64,000 nt of DNA from Apostichopus japonicus (taxonomy: Eukaryota; Echinodermata; Holothuroidea; Aspidochirotida; Stichopodidae), in the NCBI RefSeq assembly GCF_037975245.1, contig NC_092568.1, forward strand, positions 26,036,501 through 26,100,500, given 5' to 3'. The notes under the pieces are model-generated. The model had not been told where the DNA came from. It saw nothing but the letters and a program-made list of their open reading frames with translations, and did not search any database. The first letter of the stretch is position 1; each line of letters starts with the position of its first letter. Below, in pieces: positions 27,358 through 62,400 of this stretch. The position numbers and the translations under genes were made by a program.

Positions 27358-27726
27358 TCACCATTTATCTTGTCTATCAATGGTTACACTTATGGGATTG
27401 GCACGAAACATATTCATTATTTTTCCTTTCTTGATCACCCTTCTCATTGTCGTCCCTCCATTATTCGTAGTATTTGCCATCGCCGAATCTCTGCTTCTAA
27501 GTTCTTGCAATAACCCAGTAAGTGTCCTGATATAATCAGTCACCCCACGTATCACCTCCACTTTAGTCGCAAGACCTTGAAACTCTTGCGGAACAGTATG
27601 GCTTAAGTTGTTCAATAAATTATTTATCTGAGCCAATCTTTGTCTCTCTCTGACGGTCGCATTAGCCCTACTCCTCGAGAGACGGATATTGAACGGTTCT
27701 TTCTGTACTTTTCGTGATGACGCCAT
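27358..27726 (-). CDS. Group A-like bHLH transcription factor (divergent)
   Basis: The frame opens at ATG 27724-27726 and reads 122 codons to TGA at 27358-27360. The bHLH is at residues 20-76: basic region RANATVRERQR with the E-R-x-R core that contacts E-boxes, helix 1 AQINNLLNNLSHTVP, a short loop, and helix 2 KVEVIRGVTDYIRTLTGLL. Helix 2 resembles achaete-scute proteins, while ANxTVRERQR recalls Twist/Ptf1a types. It would act in the nucleus, likely as an E-protein dimer. The stop sits inside AAATGGTGAGT, a strong splice donor, so in a spliced transcript the protein could lose its last residue and continue in an exon I could not find. A TATA box lies about 100 bp upstream. Subfamily is uncertain. 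Confidence 0.8.
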   Translation of the reverse strand: MASSRKVQKEPFNIRLSRSRANATVRERQRLAQINNLLNNLSHTVPQEFQGLATKVEVIRGVTDYIRTLTGLLQELRSRDSAMANTTNNGGTTMRRVIKKGKIMNMFRANPISVTIDRQDKW

Positions 27727-27828
27727 TTCCAAGGTAAAATTCAAGCTATATTAAGAAATAATATCATGATTTTTTGCCTACGTTGCCAAGTTACCAACAT
27801 ATAATAGTTACCTTTATATGTACTAGTG

Positions 27829-36999: not shown

Positions 37000-37124
37000 C
37001 GATAAAAAACAGGATAACCGGACATTTTATTTTTCAAACCAAGAAACGAATTTTGTTTCTTTGACTCGTAAGTCTGAACTGTTAAAAGATTCTTGGATAT
37101 CCTGACCTTGGCTACGTTGTTAGG

Positions 37125-40100
37125 ATGCATGCGTTACAGAAGACACCTCATCATTGCATCGGGTCTGGTTTATTTAGTGGGTGTTGTTCGTCCTGCTCAA
37201 TGACGACGATGCCCGCAGCATCCTCCTTCTCCATCGATAGCATACTCGCGAACAGAGCATCCATTCCTTCGTCACCTCTTGGTACCACCGGCAGACATCA
37301 CCATTACCTTCCTCCGTTTCCCCATCCACACCCGACTTTCACCACCTTGCTCCCTCCGGAATATCACTTAGGTAAGTTTCTCCTCGTCGTCACCAACATT
37401 TCAAAATTAAAACGATGTTTTATTTATACTGTTATATGAGTTATATTTCTGCATGTTTTTATCCCTATGTATTACTGACAATATGAATACAATCAATTCA
37501 GGAGCAATGTAGATTGCATTATTATATATGGAACAAAGTGGGTTAATAAGTTGTTCACTTTTGTCACCAAGGTCCTGTAAAGATTATTCACAAAACTGAA
37601 AAAGTATGTCCCTTGGTTTCTTGGCGGACGAAAAGTAATATAAACCGGTACTTCTTAAAATGTGGACTGTAATGAAAACGTTAAACTTTCAAGGTAAAGT
37701 CATCTTTCTTTGACTTTAAAAGTTTCTTCAATGAAAAAAAAAATAATAATAATATGTTAAAGTCTTACATTTTGCCCTTCACATGAATGTAATAGTTTCC
37801 ATTTTTTTGCACGTTATGTCATCGTAAACTCTCATTTGGGAAACTGTTGATGTGTGAAAGGGAAAAAAAAATCATCCAAACGGAAGAGAATTTTAACTTG
37901 TTGTCTTCCTTCATACAAATCCATTAAACCTCGAATCATATCTAACAAAACCATGTAGCTCTGAAAAATATGAAATACTATTTTCTCTCTTATTTCTATT
38001 TTCTCTTTGCTCGAAATCCTCGATAGAACCTTTTCAATTATAATAAATAGTGGATAAGGTTGTATGTTTTCAAGTTTGCCTTGCTTCGAATGAGTTAAAG
38101 CCCATGTAAGCTCCATTTGATTCGATTCGTGATCCAATCATTTGATTAAATTTGCTATCAAAGAAGAGTTGACAAATTAACTTTCTTCTTATTGATTAAT
38201 ACCATTTTGTGTTGTAAATAGTGAATCAATATTGTAAAGCAATTAAGTATATGGTATGATTAGCTGAAAGGTACCACATGAAAAATAACTCGAAATCTAT
38301 AGATATACCAGAAATTTCACTAATACACTAATTATATATGTTACTCAGAGAGAAATAGTAAAACAAATGTTGAAATGATTCTTCTTGGATCTTATGATCT
38401 ATCTAATTAGCATTTCGTTCAAAATGTTGCATAATTCAGCAATTTGTATAAATTATTAAAGAGATGGGATGCTGGACTGTACAATTTTCTTTACAGACTC
38501 CTAGTAATTTGAACTAATTACCAAACTGCAAAGTTCTATTTTAATATGGATACGGTTGAATGAAGACCGAAAAAAATTGAACATTTTGTCGTGATGTTGT
38601 GAATATATTCAAATCTTAATATGCATGAAATAATCAATTCATTAGTTTATAATTGTTTTCTTAAATTCAGAAAAAAACACTATAGTTGATGTTTTTCTTT
38701 GGAAAAAAGGAAAATATTCGCACGGAAATGTCATTTAAGGGATTCGATGACTAGATAAATCATACGTTTTGCAACCGCACTTAAGTGTATCATATGCGTT
38801 TGCTGTTGTCCAAAGAATGTGGTAGAAATGTTAGCAATTTTTATGAGGTTGATTTATTAAGATACCATAGGTCACTTGTAACCTGAATGAACATTCGCTT
38901 CTTACAAAAAGTTATATTACAATATTTTCTATGATTTGAGTCTTATTATACAATTCACGTGTTCTATGTGCTAATTTTTATTATACCCCTGCTGTATTAG
39001 GCTAAGAGAAATTCACGTGGATGATTGCAAATAAGTTTGAGTTCCGTTAACAAAGTTATCAAGGAATTCTGCTTTACCCCCCCCCCCCTTTTTCCCTTTC
39101 TGATTACAAACATTATTTTACTAAAATGAAATTGATATAGAATTCTATGACCCGTGTTTTTTCCTTTTTTACATTTAAAAGTTATGCTACACGGGGATTA
39201 CAATTTCAGTTCAAATTGCTAGATTTGTTAAGACGACGGAGAGTTCAATGCTCTTTTATTGATATTTATTTGCATGTTAACCATAGATTCGAATTAGAAC
39301 ATAAATTGTACACAACATTCACCTAAAGTCACAAATTGAGCAAGCCAGTTCTTTCTTACTGACTCCTCGAAACCATTAGCTTTCACTTAGTTTTGATTGT
39401 CTCTTTTGAGGATTAAAAGTTAAGAACATTAACCCTAACGATTAGTATAGAGTATAGAGATCACTTATACATGAAGTTGTGGTTTATCGAACGTTATAGA
39501 AAACCTGAGGATAAACCCTATTAACGTAGAGTACCATCAATTATAACCGAAGTGTAATTCTTATCGATGTAACGCTTGAGTTCTATTCTACCTGATGAGT
39601 TTGTATTGATACACACCTGTCGTGTATCAGTAGGGGTTGGTGAGAACTATTGTTAAGACTAATGATCATTTCATGACAATTAGCTTGTAATCTCACTTCG
39701 CAATTACTGAATCAAACACAAGTTTCTTATTCCTTAGTTACTAACCCTTTTCATCACTTGTCGAGCCGATGTAATGATAAAGTGAATCTAAGATTGTGCA
39801 GGGTTAAAGTCAAAAGTATTCTGAGTTTGTGTAAAAGAACCCATACGAATTAATCGGCTTGTTTGTGGGATAGTGCATGGTGGATGGGCGATGATGGGCT
39901 GGGGGAAAAGGACCATTACTTATTATGAAGCTAAGACTGAAGCGTGTGTTCCTAAGAAGGGGAGATATGATTGTTCCATTAAATTTGTTACTACTCTCTT
40001 TCGCAAAAGATTACAAATGTCGACGTTAAAAAATTGTGACACCGTTTAACTTGCAATGCTAATACTCTTACTTCACGGCCGCCAGGTTCGCAACAGTTAA

Positions 40101-43100
40101 ATTTAAGTCACTAAACCGGGTAAAATTGATGTTCTTCAACTATATTTTCTTTTGTCTATGTTGCGTATAGGTTGTTCACTCCCTTTCAATCTACATTATT
40201 GACACCAATACAGTAAACTTTTCCCTTATTAAATAATGTTACATCAATTTTTCGTAGAGGTTTTCAATATTAACTTATATTGCTGTAAAATTCTTCTTTC
40301 CTTCCAAACTGCTATTCTGTTTTAAGATTGAGTCGGGTTCAGTCTACACCTATAGTAACGAAATTTAATGAAATACGGTTCTTAAAAAAAATATCTCGCT
40401 TACGTCTGAATTATGAATTCGCGATTACAATCATTCTTGGAAACGAAAAACAGCAATTTATGATAAATGAACATTATCCATATCGTAGTTCATAAGCTGT
40501 GCTCCGTGCTAAAAAAAAACACTAAACATATAAATAAATAAATCATAAAAACATCCCAATCAGTATTGATAATAGGCCATATATGACATAGGTAGAAAAT
40601 CTACTAGAAATTTCTTTTCTACAATAAATATATCGGTGAGACAAACATCATAATTATTCATTAATTTACGTTATTAGGCTAAACGTACCCCAATCTTTAA
40701 AAAAAAGAAAGTATTTTGAAGTTGGAAGGAAAGCAGATTACCAAGTACTCCATCTCACATCTCACTAACTAGTCTCTAAACTTCGATTTATTGAAAACTC
40801 TTCACAAGGGTATAGATGATCTGGACTAAAATCTTCAAAGGAAACCTTGATAGGAGAACAAGCGAAAGCAATTATCCCTCATCATGAGAAATAGTTTTTG
40901 AATCTTTTTCACAAACTTTTTAACAATCTACTTACTCAATCTAACAATCAAGTATAAAGAAGATGAACGTATTTACTGTATCTCCTAAGTGGAGAGCTTT
41001 TGGAAACTCACCACAAGAGACCCAGATACCATTAAACAGACACAAAAGAATCAACAATGGGACCAGGGATCGTGGGCTGTGGTCGTGAACCCAAAGTCCA
41101 TTGTAATAGGTCCTTCTCTAAAGGAACCGTTTCACTTGTCCTGTATAAAATGTTCTGTGCGGTGTGAGCAATCGGGGGTATTAGCGAGACCACTTAACCA
41201 GTCGTTTTAATCATCTAAACTCTTTTCAATATGTCAGCTTCACCCCTAGAGTCAGTTTTAAAGATTTGGCGAAAAGGACGTTTGATACAATCTTTGAGGT
41301 TTCTCGGTTTAAATAACAATCGTTGCTTCTGATGAAGTCCCCGCAGGCCGAAAAAACGGACGATCTTCTAACAAATTGTTTTGAAAAGAGAGAGAATGCC
41401 ACCTTTGAACGTATATATTGAAAAAAGAAACTTAATCTCTACAGACGTTGCCTCTATCCTAACAAACGTTGAGAGGAATGGATAAACTTTTTTTTCTGAA
41501 GTAGATAAACCTAAGTGATAACACTTAAACCAGAGAATGCCACACAAAGACAACCTTTATACTTCATGAAAAAACAGAGTTGATAAAAAGACGAAAAAAT
41601 CCATTTCACTGCAGGAAGTATTTATATCTCTTAGAGACACTTACAGAGCAATTACAGATTTAACTGTTAACCAATGACCTACACTCTCGCCCCCCCAACC
41701 CCCCATCCACATTGAAGAGGGCTTTTCGTTTCTTTTTATTACAAAACTCTTGGTGTTGCCCCATGCTTGTTACTTTAGAAAACAAAAAGTACTTTTAAAA
41801 AAATAAAAGGGTAGTGACAAAATTAACGTATCCATTCAACACAGTACAGTATGGAAATAATTTAACTAATTTAACAAATATGTCACAAAACGTGGTAAAT
41901 ACATATATCTTAGCACGGATTATGGTCCATTAGGATTATCAATTATTTATTCGTGTTTGACATGCTCTTTCTTATTCAAGTAAATAATCAATGGGAAATT
42001 GACTGGGAATTTATTCTCATATAAATTACCAAATAGATTTCTTTTTTTTAGGTACTGAGTATTAACGTTAGCAAATGTGATTGGTAGCCAACATAAGCTG
42101 ATAGCTTCACTGAGTAGATATTATGCACCGTCAATGTGATAATTTGGGTATTTATTTTGAACTGTTCGTGAAAACAAATCAATGTCTCTTTATAGACACA
42201 TTCTCGGGTAGTTGGTAGTCTTTTTAGTATATTTTAAAATATTGTTTTTATTTCAAGATGTTATTTCTGATATATTTCAGCTGCGTACCATGCTTATCAT
42301 GGTTACCAACCTGCAGACCTGATGATGGGCCGCAATCAGAAGAGAAAGCGACGTCACAGGACAATCTTCACCGAGGAGCAGTTGGAGCAACTGGAGGCGA
42401 CTTTTGAGAAGACACATTACCCGGATGTGATGCTCAGAGAAGAACTTGCTTTAAAGGTTGATCTTAAAGAAGAACGAGTTGAGGTAAAATATCAATATGA
42501 CAAATTTTAAAGCAATCGGATGAGTTTCATAAAATAATATTGTAATATTTTACCCATATATGGTATTCACTGAAAGAAATGGTGATGTCATCTATTTGAA
42601 ACAAAACAGATGTAATAAATTGCATCCGCGACGTTTTAAGTCTTTGGACCGGGTTACTAAAGTAACACACGTTACGTTTGCGGACAACAAAACTCATAAT
42701 TGTACTGTTGATTAGATTGATTTTTCGAGAGAAGTAGAATTCAAACAATAAAACTAAAATTTATATTATCGCCCTTGGTTTGATTTTATTATCAATATAA
42801 GTTTGTACCAACATTGCTAAAATAACTTTTAATAAATCACAATAACAAAGCTACGATCTAAGAATTATTACATATCAGTACTGACACTGAGTAACAAGAG
42901 TCATACGTTGAAACGAATCGTGGATCGTATTTCGATAAACAATTCTCTATTTCCCTAAGCTTTTCAATTGGTAATCTAAACTGAACAAATTAACATACTT
43001 GACTAATCTGGCTTCACTTGTACTGTAATTTCAGGTTAGCTATAGCCGAGGACATCTCTTTAAACATACAATTTAATCGTAACCAATTTCTCCGACTAAC

Positions 43101-43647: not shown

Positions 43648-44065
43648 TTATATAAAGTTATTATGGACATCATTTTAAGCTTCTCATCAGAACTAATTAA
43701 TATGACTTTATTCTTTTTTATCGTTCCAGGTTTGGTTTAAAAATCGGCGAGCCAAATGGAGGAAACAAAAACGTGAACAACAAGAAGCAACGAAACGCGC
43801 GGCTGCGGCCGCCGCAGCAGCTTCGGCAGATCGAGCGATGAGAGATCGAGAAGAAAAGGCCGCTGAGAAAGATTGCCCGGTCGAAGAAGTCCCATCACAG
43901 AAACCTCTTAGAAAAGCAACTCGTTTAACAGATTTCAGCATAGCGAAAACATTAGAACATATTAAACACGACCGGGTTGAAGTTAGCTCCAGTTTACAGG
44001 ACAATCATACAGATGATGCTTTGTCATCTTGTTCATCTGATAGCGGTTCGGAAGACGAGTCGTAG
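37125..44065 (+). CDS. gsc: Goosecoid homeobox transcription factor, three exons
   Basis: Exons: 37125-37371, 42281-42483, 43730-44065 (TAG 44063-44065). All junctions are GT-AG (phases 1 and 0), giving 261 aa. Goosecoid is a paired-like K50 homeodomain repressor that binds TAATCC-type sites and controls axial/organizer and foregut-ectoderm fates. Residues 35-41 are FSIDSIL, the eh1 motif that recruits Groucho. The homeodomain is residues 105-164 ([16 protein letters not shown]..., ending [15 protein letters not shown]), with Lys at position 50 (residue 154). The intron at homeodomain 46/47 is a conserved site of the class. A poly-Ala run follows, then an acidic Ser-rich tail. Homologs usually start a few residues before eh1, so ATG 37200 (MTTMPAASS) or 37209 may be the real start; ATG 37125 gives the longest frame. 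Confidence 0.95.
37372..42280 (+). other. Goosecoid intron 1
   Basis: A 4.9 kb AT-rich intron, donor gtaagt, acceptor ttcag. It has no tandem arrays or transposon ends that I can see, in contrast to the flanking DNA, and no other exon. This relatively repeat-poor stretch could hold enhancers, but that is inference only. Confidence 0.65.
42484..43729 (+). other. Goosecoid intron 2
   Basis: A 1.25 kb phase-0 intron inside the homeodomain coding sequence. Its 3' half contains the TA/TTTA microsatellite at 43551-43656, which ends about 75 bases before the acceptor tcgttccag. Confidence 0.85.
43551..43656. repeat. TA-rich microsatellite in goosecoid intron 2
   Basis: TA dinucleotides interrupted by TTTA and TAAA variants. 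Confidence 0.85.
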
Positions 44066-51290: not shown

Positions 51291-53935
51291 TCAAAAGTGT
51301 TGTCCTCCGTCATGATAAGGTCCTCCTTCGGTGCAGGGGAGATTGTGTCGATAGTTGTACTCCGGGTGGGCTGGAATCCACCTCTGTGGTACATTAGGTG
51401 GATTCAGTGGTATCATCGGGTCCACATGCGTGGTACTGATTCCTGATGCACACCAGTTATTGGTACAAGTTTGGTTCATGTGTAGTTCAGATGATGTCAG
51501 TCTATCTCTCTTTCTGTGACGAGCTCTCCGATTTTGAAACCAAACCTGTTGAAGAGGAAAACATTAGAAATGCACGAAGATTCAAATTACCGAGGAGTTA
51601 CCAAACAAAGCAGAAGTTCGGGTTCGAACAGACGCTGATACAAGGTGGGGGGGGGGGGGCAACCTCACATGTAGATTCCGAAGAAACCTTGCGCTGATAC
51701 TAACTTATATAGTCTAAGTAAATATGCCTGAGAATCGGCACCACTGGACGTCTAAAATGTTATGGGTTTTTCTTCTGGTGAAGGACCACAGATCCTGTAC
51801 ATAGGAGTCGGTTTCAACGACCTCAAGGCCACGTCCCTCCCCTTTAAAAATCATGGATCCGCCCCGATTTACAAGCAGTGAAGACTTGAAGTTAAAAATA
51901 CAACTTCAACTCGAATAAAATATGTAGTTTTATTTTCAGGTAAACAGAGCCACAAAGACTTATTGATTAACATTTATCTACAAATTTGACGCATTTACGT
52001 AGTACGTTTGCATTGGCCTTAAGGTCATTTTCATTAACAGTGACTGTAGATTTGGAACACTTACAATAAATATAAAGTTACTGTCTGTTATTGCTCAATA
52101 GTATGTACATGTACAGTATGCCCCCATAACATAGATCTAAGCCCCACCACCCGCACCATCAACAACGAACATCGACCCTCCTATTTCCCCGACATGATGC
52201 AAGTAACGTCCCTGTGTGACGTCATTGTGTGACGTATACATTGTGTTTAGTTTTTGGCTGAAATTGTTAATCCAAGGAAGCTTTTCTTTCCGAGAATCAA
52301 CTTCCAAATTATGAGAGATTTCACCTATTTTATAAGAGAGAGAGAGGGGTGGGAGGGGGGAAAACAGAGGTGGGAGCACAGGTGGTAGGGGTACCTCTTT
52401 GTATTTGATGACACGTACCTGTATTCGGGATTCTGGGATCCCTAAATCCAACGAAAGTTCTTCTCGTTCTTGTATTCCCGGATAAGGTGAGCGTTTGAAT
52501 ACCTTCTCTAGTGTTACAAGTTGTCCCACTGAAAAAGAAGTTCGTCGTCTTCTTCGGGCTCTTTTCTGCTTCACTTGAAGTAACTTGTTCTCCTCCGCAA
52601 CCGGGATTCCGTTGTCCATGACCGTTTCTACATGCTGCTGCCTTCTATTGGTGTCGCCGCTATATTGACTTTTATCGCCAACTTGAATATAAAGGAATGA
52701 AGAAGTAACTTGTAAATGAAAGCAAAATAGTGTGCGTATGTAGGCGACGTTAGAGGTTCCACTTTTCTTACCAAAGGTGTAAAATACAGTAGCTGTGTGT
52801 CAGAATGAATGAATGAACGAAAATCAAAAGGGAAACGAACGAACGAGTAGATAAATAAATATATAGATCTATAGAAACGATAGAAAAAAAGTAATTTTTT
52901 ATGAAGAAATTGTTGCTGAATGGAACTCGTTAGTTGTAAAACATAATAAAATTGAGTATAAACTAGCTGATAGTTGAACAACTTGTGCAAAGTAATTGAC
53001 ATGGTCTTTTACGCATCCCCCCACCAACCCACCTTACGTAATAGAATCATAATTCATAAGTTTTGATGAAGAGAAAGTAATAATATAGAGAACAAAATCA
53101 ACTTATTTTTATGGAATTTCGAACGAAAATCATACAATGAGTTTAGACCATGATATTACTTGGTAGAAAGTGAGCCCATCTCACTCCCATACACACTACA
53201 ATCCCTCCATCTGAAAATATTTATACTGCATTACGTATAAAGGGGGTTGTGTGTAGTCACCAATAGATAACCATGTCAGCGAAAAGGGTGCACTACCCCC
53301 CCCCCCGGCCCACACTCAATTCATAGACATGCTTGTACTTTTAAGACCACACCGTGATAAAGGTTTTGTAGTATAAACCTTTGTATGTTATACCCTTACT
53401 CAGTGGCGTATGAAATTACTTTTGAGTGGGGGGGCTGAAGACTGATGGCCGGCCTGGGGGAGGGGTCTAAGGGGAGGGGGTCTCCCCCTCCCCTTTTGAT
53501 TTTTTTTGCATTTCCAGGTGGCCCCAGATGCAATTTAGTGCAATATAGCACACTTCCACCCACCAGATCCATTTTGTATATAATTTTGCATTTTCACCTG
53601 GACTTAGATGCAATTTGGTGCTCCAAATGAGATTTTTTTCTCATTTGGAAATGAAAAAGGGGTTTTCTGACTTGCGAAGCGGGGGGTGGCGGAATGATAC
53701 TCCGCCCCTCCACATTTTTCACTGGGGGGCTGGCGCTCCCCCAGCCCCCCGGTTCCTACGCCCTTGCCCTTAATTTCATCCAATAGGCTAAAGACCATAA
53801 AATGTAATCTCTAAATTAGAATGACATACCTGTTGTGTGAGGTTGTTGTGGTTGTACAAGATGGTGGTCCTTCCAGGCAAATGGCATCCGTTCTGAACAC
53901 TTAGCATTATCATTCAGCAAGGAAGAACTAAACAT
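51291..53935 (-). CDS. Paired-like Q50 homeobox protein, Sebox/Mix/DUX-type
   Basis: Three exons on the minus strand: 53830-53935 (ATG 53933-53935, donor gtatgt), 52419-52681 (acceptor attcaag after a good pyrimidine tract, donor gtacgt) and 51291-51545 (acceptor tcaacag, stop at 51291-51293). Phases 1 and 0 agree, giving 207 aa. The homeodomain is residues 78-137, with Gln at position 50 (WFQN) and a basic RRRRR start. The intron at homeodomain 46/47 matches goosecoid's. SFSVGQL recalls Sebox; PYPGI, EREEL and GIPESRIQVWFQNRRARH recall DUX and Mix homeodomains. No paired domain, OAR or eh1 motif is seen. It is a likely nuclear DNA-binding regulator of TAAT-type sites. A closer acceptor (gtag, exon start 52627) also keeps frame but has a poor tract. 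Exact family is unresolved. Confidence 0.88.
51546..52418 (-). other. Intron 2 of the minus-strand homeobox gene
   Basis: An 873-base phase-0 intron inside the homeodomain. Reading through its donor stays open for 93 more codons, but the translation is low-complexity and breaks the homeodomain after RIQV. A GGATCCGCCCC string near 51856 resembles a transposon end but has no partner. Confidence 0.8.
52682..53829 (-). other. Intron 1 of the minus-strand homeobox gene
   Basis: A 1148-base phase-1 intron containing MITE copy 2 (53401-53766). The 124-codon open frame at 52628-53002 in this region lacks any recognisable domain. Confidence 0.75.
53401..53766. mobile_element. hAT-type MITE, copy 2, in homeobox intron 1
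   Basis: This 366-bp element begins CAGTGGCGTA and ends GGTTCCTACGCCCTTG. Flanks are CCCTTACT (53393-53400) and CCCTTAAT (53767-53774), an 8-bp duplication with one mismatch. It matches the element at 17958-18327 along its whole length in inverted orientation, sharing for example the CTCATTTGGAAATGAAAAAG and GATGCAATTTGGTGCTCC segments. Confidence 0.9.
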
Positions 53936-56900
53936 TAATGAATTTGATATCTCCATTACAAACTATAAGTTTTTTAAGGTCTTAAAAAACAATATTAGTT
54001 ATCATCTCTTCTGCTGTATGGCACCATCTCCACCAAAGCTGTAGCTTTATATCCATTTTGTGTGGGTGTCTTTTTTGCTCACGTGATTGGGTGCATACAA
54101 ATATCCAACTTCGTACATCGTATCACCTTCATTGAGGACCATTATGTTTAGATCACAAAAGAAAAACAAGTATGTCGTAGATGAAAAAAAATGTAACAAT
54201 AGGCTTTTAATTACACACTTCGACATCTCCTTGAAAATTTGTAATATTGAAACAACTGTGATTTTCTTTCCCGCAATTTATTGGCTATTGTTCGATAACC
54301 TGATTATCGTTCGACAAGGTAAGGTTTACGGTAATACCGCTAAATGCCAATATATGGAGCTATGAAAGAAGAAAACTAAACGATAAAAGCTAAAAAAAAA
54401 AAGAATAAGCAGAAAAGGGTTCAAAACGAAATAAAAGAAAAATGACCATCATAATTAACAATAAGAGCTCGCCTCCCGCTTGGTTGACCATTGTTGGTAA
54501 AACTAGAAAACATCTGCTATCAAATACTAATAAAAAAAAATGCGAAGACTCACGTAGTCTCTTTGTGTGAAGATAAGTTAATTAACTGACGAATAATTCT
54601 AACAACTGAGAAAGGGAAAATGTCTTGAAAGAAAAACAGGATGCAGGGACGGATTTATGAATTTTTAAATGAGATTGTGTAGTCCCGGGGGTCGTTAAGC
54701 TACACTCTATTCTCCCCATAATGAATCCGTGGATGTGATATAATATATAAACTTGAAAAATTGGGACACATTTGAGATTCTCGACCACGCAATCATATGT
54801 AACCTTTATGTGTTTTTTTAGCGCATATTTGTCTTTGGGTGTGAGTTTGTTGTTATTTGTGTTATTTGAATGTAGGGTATACTTATAAAACATCATAACT
54901 CAGTGATAACTTCTGTTCTTGAACCCTCCGAACCAAACTACGGGCCACTCAAACACGATTGCTGCTCTTGTATATATCATTTGCCAATATATTATATATA
55001 TAACCTGTCTGCGTGTCAATACTACTTCTGGCGTATTAAACAAAACTAAATTACGCTTTGTGGCTTGTCTGCATTCAGACAAAAACCAAATTGCTTAATT
55101 GAGGGCTCTATCGTAATTCGTGTAACCCTTTTTGAGGGTGGGGTGCATGGGCCGGGGAGGGGGAGTTTATGGGGAGGGAGTTGGGGTTGCCTTAAGTTTC
55201 GCATTGTCGATCATTCGTAGACGCCTGAGTAGACGTCATTTTCCTCTTTATTTGGAAACTTTCATGCCGTGTTTTTATTTCAAATACGTCCCCTCCCCTC
55301 CCGGTCACTCGCTTTTGTCACCCAATGTAATCCCTACGGTGATCAGGACAGGCTACGACTGAAGGCATCTTTCATTTTGCCTTGCTAAAAGTACAATGTG
55401 ACGATGAATGAATATCACAATTTTAACTATCATTTTATTTTCGTATCGCTTTCATCATGAAGGCAAATTTTGAACTGAAAACAAAATGCTATAGAACACA
55501 TAGATTTAAATTCCCGCAAAATCATTTATTCCATGATGAAACGATAGATGGCATCAAATTTACAAGATGTATAAACTGAAGAGATGAGCAAGTATGATGT
55601 CAATATCCCTACGAAATATCACACAAATTACAACATTCTTGACATAAATTCATTTACAAAGAGTTCAACGTATATCCCTCCCAGAGAGAAGTCAATATAA
55701 CAGAGAGGAAGGAAATATCAAAGTTAAGATTAGATATTCTCAAATCCCTCTCTCTAATTCTTTAAACTGACAAAGTTTTGGAATGCATGGTTTGGCATCA
55801 ATTTATAATAACGATCAATTGATGAAATGAAAATAGGATAAGTTACGATAAGGTTTGTAAGTCTAAGATAGCGGTTACAGGCTTTCATAGTCTGAACATT
55901 AGACATTATATATGTATAATTTTTCTTCATAGTTATTCAAACATAGCGTCATTAGAAATATTTAATAAAAATGCAAGATATAATGACCTTTATTGTCTAC
56001 TACTGAAATATGTTTTCACGTCACATTGTTTAACACTTGAAACAGCAGACCTCATGAACCAAGACCAAGACCTATCTCTTGGCCATTAATAGATACTCTG
56101 CATTGACACGACAGGCATTATTTGACTGAATGAAATATGGGCGGCAAAACAAACTAACATTCTTCATTTATGAACTGAACAAACCACTAATTTTTTATTA
56201 TTTCCTCAAGACCTATATTATATCTGAAATAATTATTTTTCAAGTTATACTTCCTTCTCTGTTTCCCCTGCAGCTAGTAATTTCGGTTTCAGATCAAGTG
56301 ACCACGTCACAAAATACTCCATACATATGATATTATATTTTAGTAAAAAAGAGATTTCTTTTATAGAAAACTATAACACTATTCTCATAAATGATTTTTT
56401 AAGTAATATCAATGTAACATTTTAATGGAGGGCAATTTAATGGCTAATTCAGAAGATATAGAACCAAACGATTATCCATAATACCACATGCAATATGAAA
56501 GAACTTAAAATTAAAAGTCAAGGTTTAAACAGATCTTTTAAGTTATTGAACGGCTTATTGTGATTTTATCGAGTTTTGTCTATACAGAATAGAGCTTTGT
56601 CAAATATACACAGCCCATTTTTTTTTTAAATACAAGAAATTATATGAATAATTACACATGGATCAACAATATTTCCAGCAAGGGACATCAAGAGCCAAGT
56701 CAGGCCCTGGGGACAATCATGTCAAAGGATCCCATTTTTCCAAGTATATTATGAAAATGAGAATACATTGTTATTTATCCCATATTTCCCCGACCCCCTT
56801 GTTGACCCAAGGCCCCAGTCTGTAGCAACCCTGACCTGTTCTTATCAGGTCTGCATATGGCCCACATAGAAACATTGCTACACAAACTGAAGATCAATCA

Positions 56901-59133: not shown

Positions 59134-59425
59134 TCATACTTTGTTGGCTGCAAATTCTGGATAATCTACGAAACCGTCTTTGTTCTTGTCATCTTCCTCC
59201 AGGATAGGGTCTATGAGCCGCATCAATTCATCGTCGTCTAACGGCGTAGAGTCATCGGATGCGCCCTCGTGGTGAAAGTGAGACACGGCTTGCATAATCT
59301 CCAGGCCGTCTAGTTTCATGTTGTTATCGTAGTCGTGCATTTTGAAGTAATGTAATTCCAGCTCCTTCTCTGACATGTCTTGCCCATCTTGATCGATAAC
59401 ACCATTCAAATGAAGCTTTATGTGT
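59134..59425 (-). CDS. mcfd2: Distal alternative last exon (3b) of the MCFD2-like gene
   Basis: The acceptor is preceded by a long T-rich tract and ends caatacag. The exon enters in phase 2 and codes for 96 residues to TGA at 59134-59136. It has two canonical EF-hand loops, DYDNNMKLDGLE and DKNKDGFVDYPE, with acidic residues at positions 1, 3, 5, 9 and 12 in the usual pattern. HYFKMHDYD is the segment most like vertebrate MCFD2, so this is probably the ancestral version. Confidence 0.88.
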
Positions 59426-62400
59426 CTGTATTGAAAGAAACAAAAAAAAAACAGAAAAAGTCACAATCAGCTCTAAAGCAGCTTTCTTAATTACTTTAAT
59501 AATTTCCAATACTATTTACATCGCAAGTAAATGTAGTTAAATAACACATTTCAAAAACACAAAGAATTGCTAACTCTGGAAATTTTCAGAAAATTTCAAC
59601 TTTCAGTGAGAAAATGAATTTGGATTTTAAGGTCATACATTCTCTCTCCCACCACACTACTCCCTACCCCCCCCACCACCCCCTCCAACACACATCATAT
59701 TTCATCACTGTGTGAACCCTTTTAACATTTAAAAGAAAACTGTCTTCAGAATGATTAGAACAGGCACTGTGGGAAAAGACAAGATTACATTAAGTATAAA
59801 CTAGCAGATATGATTTTCACAAGCATGTGCACCCACCACCAGATGTATGAAATAGTGTATTAAAGATGAATTTGGAAACAGGTATTGCAAATGCAGATGG
59901 AGAGGAAATATTATTGATGCTGAAAAAATGATTTTAAAGATCTCAACCTGATAAAAAAATATATATTTTGGGAAATTCTAACCTATACCACCTTACAAAC
60001 TAGTAGAAAAGTGCAAAGTGTTGTTCCACCTTGCATCATTTTTTTGGGTTCTGCTAAGGGCCGTGTCATTCAAACAAATTTAACCTATGGATCCATAATG
60101 GCAAAGACCTTCAAGTTTAGTCCAGCCACAAATGCATGAAGATGTATGAAGTCACAAACTTTTCCTGCTTCCCACATGCAGTCAAAGAAGCCATGTCCTC
60201 CACAAAAAAATATATGATCTCTCAGCCAAGACCTTCATTCCACAATGGTGGCCACACAGGATACATCTGGCAAAAACATATATTGCATCCACGACATATA
60301 TCCTTCTATAGGGATCACATATGCCAAGAAAATACCATCTTTATCTTCATGACCTACAGTTAGGACACTTAGTGCCTTACTTCCCAGCCGGCTATTGTTT
60401 AGTTTCATTTTGTTATGTACTTCCTTACTACTATAGTGTTTGTACCCACACAGAAATTACTAACCTATGTGCTAGTTTTATGAAGGAGTGACTTTGAGAA
60501 TTCAAGGTAATCTATGTATCCGTCGCGGTTTCGATCATCGTCATAGAGGACGGTGTCTACCATGTCTTCGAGTTCTTCTTCAGATGGGCTTTCCCTCTCT
60601 TTGCTGGGGTCTGCATCATGAGAGCTATCATAATGGGACACGGCTTGCAATACTTCTAAGCCATCCAGTCGGTTATTGTGGTCAGTGTCGTGAATTTTAA
60701 AGTAGTGGAATTGTAACTCGTCATCCGTCATCTCCTGAAGGAAGTTTCCGAATTCGGCCACTCCTTGCAAATCGTGCATCATGTGTCTGAAGGGGTAACC
60801 ATGGAGTTAACATGGAAATGCCTCATACTCAGAGATCGAGAGTGGATGGTTGAAATTGCAGAAATTGCCTTTAAAAATAACACACCTTATTAATGAATGC
60901 TATAGTTTAGATTATGAAAGTGACAGTACTAAGGAATTGGGGAAATCTTGTCAATTTGATAAAGATAAGAAAGATGTTTGCAGTAAAGAAGCATTAACAA
61001 GACATGCAGAAAATAGCAAAGAGAATGAAAGCGAACAAATGAGAAACATGGAGAATCCCCCCCCCCCACCTCCCGTACGAGAACAAATACATGAACAGTG
61101 TTATGGAGAACTATACAAGTGTTAATGTGGTAGTCTTGTGCAACTGTAAACAGGTCAATAGTAGAGTGAATTTGTAAAGAAGAGCTTTGATGATATAGTT
61201 CTGTATGATTTATCAGTAACATCGTGGACACCAAATGAAATTGCAAAATAAAGTGACAGTAGAAAGCTAAAGGTGATGGATGCCTTTGTACCCCTCATGT
61301 GTGCCTAATTACTGACCTTAAATTGTTGTTACAACTGATTTAAACAGTCCGATGAGCTATGAAATGAAGCAAGGGCATATTTGCAAAAGCAAAGGAGAAG
61401 ATACAGTAAGTAGGTGAAGCAGGGCCAAAAATGACTAGTTTATAGTGAAAACCATAATAAATGTTACTTACTCTCTATCCTGTATGTGGGTCTTGTCTCT
61501 GATAAGATTACGACCACCGCCACCGGCTACATTATTAACTACTCCATGCTAGGGAAGAACAAACATAAGATCCCAAATTAATGAGTCTTAAATTCTTTAA
61601 GTTAGGTTCCTCCACTTTGAGGGTGGAAACCCATGGAAAAGACCTTCCCAAAACACTGTTGAAGATAGGACAAATGATATAACATGACATGATATTTGCA
61701 GAAAGCGCCAGGAAATTTTCACCTCGTGTTTGCAATCTATGTAATCATCATGTGATGGTTTGGCCAATAAACTTCTAATCTTTTCACTTTGTAGACATCT
61801 TTTCACAGACCAAAACAAACATATTTAATAATATCCACATAGATATGAAAGATTAAGAAGTTAAACACTGTGCATGATACTTCAAATGATGCATTTTAAA
61901 ACTGTTGAGACTGTCATTATTAATAGGGATATTCAGCTGGCTGAATCTGAGAGCTGAACAACATTGCTGAAAATTCTCTGCATCTTTACGCCAAACTGCA
62001 TATTGCAAGAGATATTCATGAATCTTACAATTTTTTTGAATTCATCTCGAAACAGCTGGGAAATGATGTCATATTCGCAATTGTGCCTAAAACATCTCCT
62101 GGCTTTCTTTAAAATATTTAGATCGTTCATCCTCAAGGGAAAATCATACTTCTACGCGAAAAAATGACGAAAGTTTAAATACAGTGAACTATGAGAATTG
62201 AGCAAACATTTCCAAATACATATTGTATCACATTCCAATGATAAATCAGCAAGATTATGATAGAAAAGTAAACCTCTTGGTATATGTCATGATGACATTG
62301 CAGATCACCTACTTTGATCCACGTCCTACAGCATGGAAGGAGTTTTTATCCAATACAAACTATATGACAATCAATCATCCATATCAAAATAAATATTAAA

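Follow-up and report, generated by a model that had tools for sequence, protein, structure and literature searches.

The homeobox gene described here is a single-copy, intact-looking gene of the PRD class, which lies next to goosecoid in the sea cucumber Apostichopus japonicus and, in relative terms, is more similar to DUX and mouse Sebox than to any other PRD family sampled. The homeodomain belongs most probably on the DUX-Sebox side of the class. The gene lies in a stretch of 64,000 nucleotides (C8:26036501-26100500, hereafter the window), and the genome-wide searches covered 671,581,487 bases on 35 contigs. As an explanation of the whole, we lean, by a little more than even chances, towards a PRD-class gene with a homeodomain on the DUX-Sebox side and, by analogy, a probable role in the early embryo.

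The gene is encoded on the minus strand from 53956 to 51291, in three coding exons with a coding sequence of 645 bases, corresponding to 214 amino acids and a stop codon. Coding exon 1 (53830..53956, 127 nt) starts with the first in-frame ATG at 53956, has an in-frame TAG 9 nt 5' of this ATG and ends at the donor CAACAG/GTATGT. A TATAAA motif on the same strand (54046..54051), 95 nt upstream of the ATG, might serve as core promoter. Coding exon 2 (52419..52681, 263 nt; acceptor TTCAAG/TTGG, donor ATACAG/GTACGT) was recognized by its homeodomain match and carries a linker and homeodomain residues 1-46, and coding exon 3 (51291..51545, 255 nt; acceptor CAACAG/GTTTGG) continues the homeodomain from residue 47 and ends, after the C-terminal tail, with the stop codon TGA. 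Both intron 1 (52682..53829, 1148 nt) and intron 2 (51546..52418, 873 nt) follow the GT-AG rule, the latter in phase 0 between homeodomain residues Q46 and V47, all on the minus strand. The frames of the three exons connect without a stop codon, and from the splice signals and the homeodomain we infer that the exons are spliced together. The preliminary description of a three-exon, single-homeobox gene is thus borne out by the introns, the open joined frame and the single homeodomain. The span that it gave, 51291..53935, agrees with our model in frame and 3' end but not in its start, since 53935 corresponds to Met 8. Within intron 1, a repeat at 53401-53766 is 91.7% identical to window positions 18327-17958.

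The Pfam Homeodomain model matches the gene product over 57 of 57 positions (E = 1.8e-22), and at E <= 0.01 homeodomain models are the only ones that match; the class is PRD-like with Q50. The landmark residues R5, I28, S43, V47, Q50, N51 and R53 are kept. The motifs SFSVGQL, PYPGI and EREEL, quoted in the preliminary description, were recovered in exon 2, and GIPESRIQ/VWFQNRRARH spans the junction of exons 2 and 3. Pfam found neither a PAX nor an OAR domain in the 214-aa product and no match in its C-terminal tail, and the sole eh1-like string sits within the homeodomain. This combination, no eh1 motif outside the homeodomain and no OAR domain, weakly suggests that the protein would lack the usual short effector motifs of its class and would not be an obvious Groucho-type repressor. 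As a control for chance, the window was scanned in six frames with a PRD-class profile made without the gene under study and without goosecoid; the profile reached 57.5 and 19.4 bits on exons 2 and 3, whereas the complete window, shuffled ten times by mononucleotides, gave at most 11.5 bits.

The intron between residues 46 and 47 is common in the class. Of the 16 other PRD-type loci searched, 15 showed a homeodomain exon that follows an AG and begins at residue 47, and the available text of PMC2938728 reports the identical position 46/47 for an intron of otp, rx and hbn in Nematostella; therefore, this intron is no mark of DUX. The genome search with the homeodomain of the gene (hereafter the query) returned 75 matches, two of which are its own exons and all the others of which show no more than 51% identity. 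In scans of IMG/VR and GTDB, none of the pattern matches was confirmed as a relative (0 of 247 and 0 of 595, respectively), and among the best-ranked literature matches, mostly from open-access journals, no description of the gene was found.

The similarity of the query was assessed against the PRD homeodomains of its own genome, which were named by eye, together with 25, later 26, reference homeodomains, of which DUX4 HD1 and HD2 were taken from PDB alignments and the other 24 were provisional versions of the known sequences. Ranked among the non-members of each family, the query came first of 42 toward each of DUX4 HD1, DUX4 HD2, DUXA HD1 and DUXA HD2. Toward Sebox it ranked 1 of 44 for the mouse protein, 4 of 44 for human SEBOX and 3 of 44 for the Sebox mean, and toward the three Mix proteins it came 12th, 14th and 26th among 43. 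Its places for Prop, Hbn, Al, Otx and goosecoid range from 18th to 38th of 44-45. In 1000 column bootstraps the query was the top non-member 795 times when compared with the mean of DUX, 277 times for Sebox and 18 times for Mix, and masking of the PYPGI stretch left its DUX rank unchanged. Over 57 homeodomain residues, it shares 35 identities with MIXL1 and equally 35 with mouse Sebox, and 24 with human GSC, the lowest number among 25 references. Repo was also considered as the family of the query and rejected (31/57 identities, query rank 31 of 46).

In BLAST searches with the references against the homeodomain exons compared from the same genome, the query was the best match for DUX4 HD1 (46.6 bits; next 46.2) and DUX4 HD2 (46.2 bits; next 45.4), with margins below 1 bit for both, as well as for DUXA HD2 (58.9 bits; next 52.0) and mouse Sebox (54.3 bits; next 51.2), and it was only sixth for MIXL1. 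As a yardstick, GSC found goosecoid by a margin of 11.5 bits. In a raw phmmer search against the PDB, the single homeodomain that the query matched best was Aristaless (66.9 bits), followed by PHOX2B (64.9), ALX4 (64.5), 8ejo (63.5) and Prd (62.7); a single DUX4 homeodomain scored below all of these, with 58.8 bits in the double chain and up to 62.1 bits alone, and DUX4 heads the list only when its two homeodomains are summed. Some of the residues that the query shares are rare among the 45 rows compared: P24 occurs in five Sebox/DUX rows (and in Repo, which was added later), while four DUX rows and HESX1 carry G27, two Sebox rows G11 and two DUX rows H56.

Trees were calculated from 60 columns with 46 rows, then with 47 rows including Repo, 24 of the 47 rows being provisional; the rows contained neither Phb/Pmar1 nor sDUX in any tree. 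In the 46-row tree the query, Sebox, DUX and HESX1 made up a weakly supported group (76/80), with an unsettled bootstrap, and after the addition of Repo the query joined DUX at 99/89 and then Sebox at 94/80. Four variants gave the query with DUX at 97/86 (no long branches), 94/85 (own genome and PDB only), 94/87 (mixed set) and 96/89 (LG+G4). Altogether five of the six trees unite the query with DUX at an ultrafast support of 94-99, and then mostly with Sebox; since most rows are common to all six, the trees are not independent. The terminal branch of the query is short (0.28 and 0.17 in two trees). The plain FastTree bootstrap was more sober: the query grouped exclusively with DUX and/or Sebox in 222 of 300 replicates, with DUX only in 124, with Sebox only in 88 and with Mix only in 3, and on own-genome and PDB rows alone it grouped exclusively with DUX4 HD1, DUX4 HD2 or both in 228 of 300. 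Of the affinity to DUX, Sebox and Mix that had been proposed at the outset, the part on DUX and Sebox is thus upheld as a measurable likeness, and the part on Mix is not supported by ranks or bootstrap.

Topology tests discriminated less. AU tests of 12 groupings, including DUX and Sebox, gave p-values of 0.08-0.22 for 11 of them and 0.039 for Pax3/7, the sole rejection; the column profiles of the model were probably derived from the free tree, which may favour that tree. A second AU run under LG+G4 with ten constraints yielded p-values of 0.18-0.51 and rejected none, and these values are rough, since the constrained searches were shortened and the tree constrained to join the query with DUX scored lower, by 8.7 units, than a free tree containing this very group. 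The smallest loss of likelihood in this run, 5.9 units, was that of Mix, and the goosecoid-constrained tree was excluded by bp-RELL and c-ELW and retained by AU. Since AU retains the rivals and the plain bootstrap is more restrained, the DUX/Sebox placement is favoured without being proven. The light on the origin of Sebox, Mix and DUX that the preliminary description had expected from the gene is accordingly tentative, with a single placement rejected by AU, 24 of 47 rows provisional and trees built without Phb/Pmar1.

Among known families, DUX shows the highest relative homeodomain similarity, and the query carries PYPGI, GIPE and R55 H56 as DUX does. The gene has one homeodomain, whereas DUX genes in the strict sense have two closely linked homeoboxes. 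According to the accessible part of PMC3004920, an intron interrupts the homeodomain in the single-homeobox sDUX genes of chicken, lizard, platypus and marsupials and in the intron-containing DUX genes, which the sea cucumber gene resembles in this respect, but sDUX second exons average 989 bp (PMC3004920, same part), compared to 255 nt for the last exon here. DUX4 also possesses a conserved C-terminal domain, and Pfam gave no match in the sea cucumber tail. With Sebox the query shares P24 and also G11, which both Sebox rows have, as well as V10 and V14 of mouse Sebox, but its G27, R55 and H56 are DUX-like. Sebox is treated as an orphan family with no invertebrate members listed, and DUX, Sebox and Mix stand together among the families without invertebrate orthologs in the 2007 listing, as far as the available text of that survey extends (PMC2211742). 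A literature search for sebox with amphioxus returned, among its best-ranked matches, nothing beyond the human survey. The DUX/Sebox likeness of an echinoderm gene hints, without proof, at a pre-vertebrate age of such genes.

The most serious competitor to the DUX-Sebox reading, with which it overlaps, is that the gene is the sea cucumber Phb, a member of the ambulacrarian family behind sea urchin pmar1/micro1/hbox12; we give this about one chance in three. Phb is described as an echinoderm paired-like family and as the source of sea urchin pmar1 in the portions available of PMC4709884 and PMC7719182, and Phb/Pmar1/Micro1/Hbox12 proteins are paired-like and devoid of a PAX domain, like the gene product studied here. 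The species abbreviations explained under a published pmar1/phb tree include A. japonicus (legend text of PMC11310086, Extended Data Fig. 5A), and the query and the Prop-like gene on C20 described below are the clearest PRD-type exons that carry no obvious family name among those read. We read 61 of the 93 homeodomain matches in the genome (59 and the two in the window), with a few fragments unplaced, and one Pax6-type exon turned up outside the listing; the listing is therefore incomplete and the argument by elimination weak. Micro/Pmar are named as the invertebrate homeodomains nearest to Anf/HESX1 in the excerpt available from PMC5180219, and one tree has the query weakly grouped with HESX1. 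The structure points the other way: Pmar1/Hbox12 genes consist of two exons and encode a homeodomain close to the N terminus, with repressor repeats or eh1 motifs in the C-terminal part, as stated in the available parts of three papers (PMC5370098, PMC4273433, PMC4709884), and occur in several copies, whereas the sea cucumber gene is single-copy, has three coding exons, carries its homeodomain centrally and shows no eh1 motif outside it, a comparison made by description. Moreover, the published forward qPCR primer for starfish phbA would, provided that it falls within helix 1, read TAEQRH where the query has SVGQLV. These counter-points rest on Pmar1 or on one starfish gene rather than on a sea cucumber Phb. 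If the gene were Phb, it would be a known early regulator of endomesoderm and the sole news would be the DUX/Sebox likeness of Phb, and the question would become the kinship of the echinoderm endomesoderm trigger with vertebrate DUX and Sebox.

With about one chance in four, the gene might instead have arisen from an ordinary PRD gene as a divergent echinoderm copy, for instance a local one linked to goosecoid or one of the Prop, Hbn or Aristaless type, and have converged on a few residues of DUX and Sebox. The AU tests retain placements with Hbn, Prop, Otx, Repo, HESX1 and goosecoid, the best single homeodomain in the PDB is Aristaless, and goosecoid adjoins the gene; against this origin speak the short terminal branch, the low ranks toward Prop, Hbn, Al, Otx and goosecoid compared with first place for DUX, the minimal identity with human GSC, and the exclusion of the goosecoid tree by bp-RELL and c-ELW. 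An invertebrate Mix-family ortholog, its goosecoid linkage explained by the MIXL1/GSC paralogon, appears improbable: the identities with MIXL1 that equal those with mouse Sebox, the smallest likelihood loss among ten constraints and the presence of PSEN with Otx and Vsx on the chromosome of the query would fit it, but not the Mix ranks, the three bootstraps of 300 and the location of LIN9 on another chromosome. Even less probable, in our judgement, is a decaying copy that has lost its expression. The repeat inside intron 1 and a reading frame known from the genome alone are compatible with decay, but frame, splice signals and homeodomain landmark residues are all intact, and the genome search with the homeodomain found no closely similar copy elsewhere.

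The neighbouring goosecoid gene, which the preliminary description had overlooked, is the only other homeodomain in the 64-kb window. Its homeodomain exons, read directly from the sequence on the plus strand, lie at about 42281-42483 and 43730-44065, with limits set by eye, and a plus-strand reading frame at 37086..37436 with the motif SFSIDSILA at 37227, a likely eh1 motif, is a candidate for the first exon. Goosecoid and the query gene are 7.2 kb apart and convergent, tail to tail. The identity of goosecoid is supported by the reference GSC, for which it is the best own-genome match in BLAST among the homeodomain exons compared (64.3 bits vs 52.8 for the next), and by its grouping with human GSC at 100/98 in the 46-row tree. 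Goosecoid has K50, whereas the query has Q50 and its protein no eh1 motif outside the homeodomain. The window further contains, on the minus strand, a bHLH exon at 27361-27750 (Pfam HLH, 1.3e-9) and two similar EF-hand exons at 59137-59460 and 60468-60806, MCFD2-like by eye and probably tandem duplicates.

On a larger scale, presenilin (PSEN), Otx, Vsx and goosecoid are all located on C8, the chromosome of the query gene. Human PSEN1, OTX2, VSX2 and GSC all lie on 14q, the human PSEN copies are at 14q24 and 1q42, and MIXL1 (1q42) and GSC (14q32) belong to one vertebrate paralogon. LIN9, a neighbour of human MIXL1 and the one such neighbour tested, is on C7, however, and an orthology with Mix by way of the 1q42/14q paralogon was rejected on this location together with ranks and bootstraps that do not favour Mix, despite PSEN, Otx and Vsx on C8. 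PIGS, a neighbour of human SEBOX at 17q11.2 and likewise the one neighbour tested, is on C15, so a linkage to SEBOX neighbours was not found. The sDUX genes share synteny with CJ057 (TMEM254) and ANXA11; searches for the SDE2 and TMEM254 families gave no match in the genome, and both are uninformative, since their controls were likewise silent.

As its class suggests, the protein would bind TAAT-type sites, and its I28, small residue 43 and Q50 suggest that it would dimerize on palindromes in the manner of other Prd-class homeodomains. If Sebox, DUX, Phb/Pmar1 and goosecoid are a guide, the gene would most likely be active in the early embryo, in endomesoderm specification, and it perhaps shares regulatory DNA with goosecoid. 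Zebrafish sebox (mezzo) is in use as a pan-mesendodermal marker, as the consulted portion of PMC10911127 indicates, and the mRNAs of starfish phbA and phbB peak at midblastula according to the text available from PMC8505446. It is conceivable, if rather doubtful, that in this gene the lineage behind vertebrate DUX and Sebox survives in Ambulacraria, still with one homeodomain and beside goosecoid. In that case the DUX-type homeodomain would be older than vertebrates, and the early-embryo regulators DUX of mammals, Sebox of fish and possibly Phb/Pmar1 of echinoderms would be descendants of one deuterostome gene. A single-homeodomain echinoderm gene with the best DUX and mouse-Sebox affinity among the sea cucumber homeodomains compared makes the origin of DUX, Sebox and Mix testable.

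The genome search also revealed several other homeobox loci. A divergent paired-like gene at C20:22870300-22873300 (RTIYNGMQINGLEACFKVNRYPDIETRE, RARMRRQER), Prop-like by eye, is a second candidate for Phb. Three Pitx-type homeodomain exons within 76 kb (C6:9255324-9331493) are apparently tandem Pitx genes, and two Uncx-type homeodomain exons lie 55 kb apart (C19:4450453 and 4505783). Five near-identical homeodomain exons (KKYLGLHERCVLATRLGLEEAQVKTWFQNRR) are spread over 1.1 Mb (C22:23754572-24852279), apparently a recent homeobox expansion. On C13, a Homeobrain-type and a Rax-type exon are 22 kb apart (21440267 and 21462512), with an Otp-type exon at 0.5 Mb of the same chromosome; in sea urchin the Homeobrain-Rax spacing is given as about 22 kb in the available text of PMC2938728.
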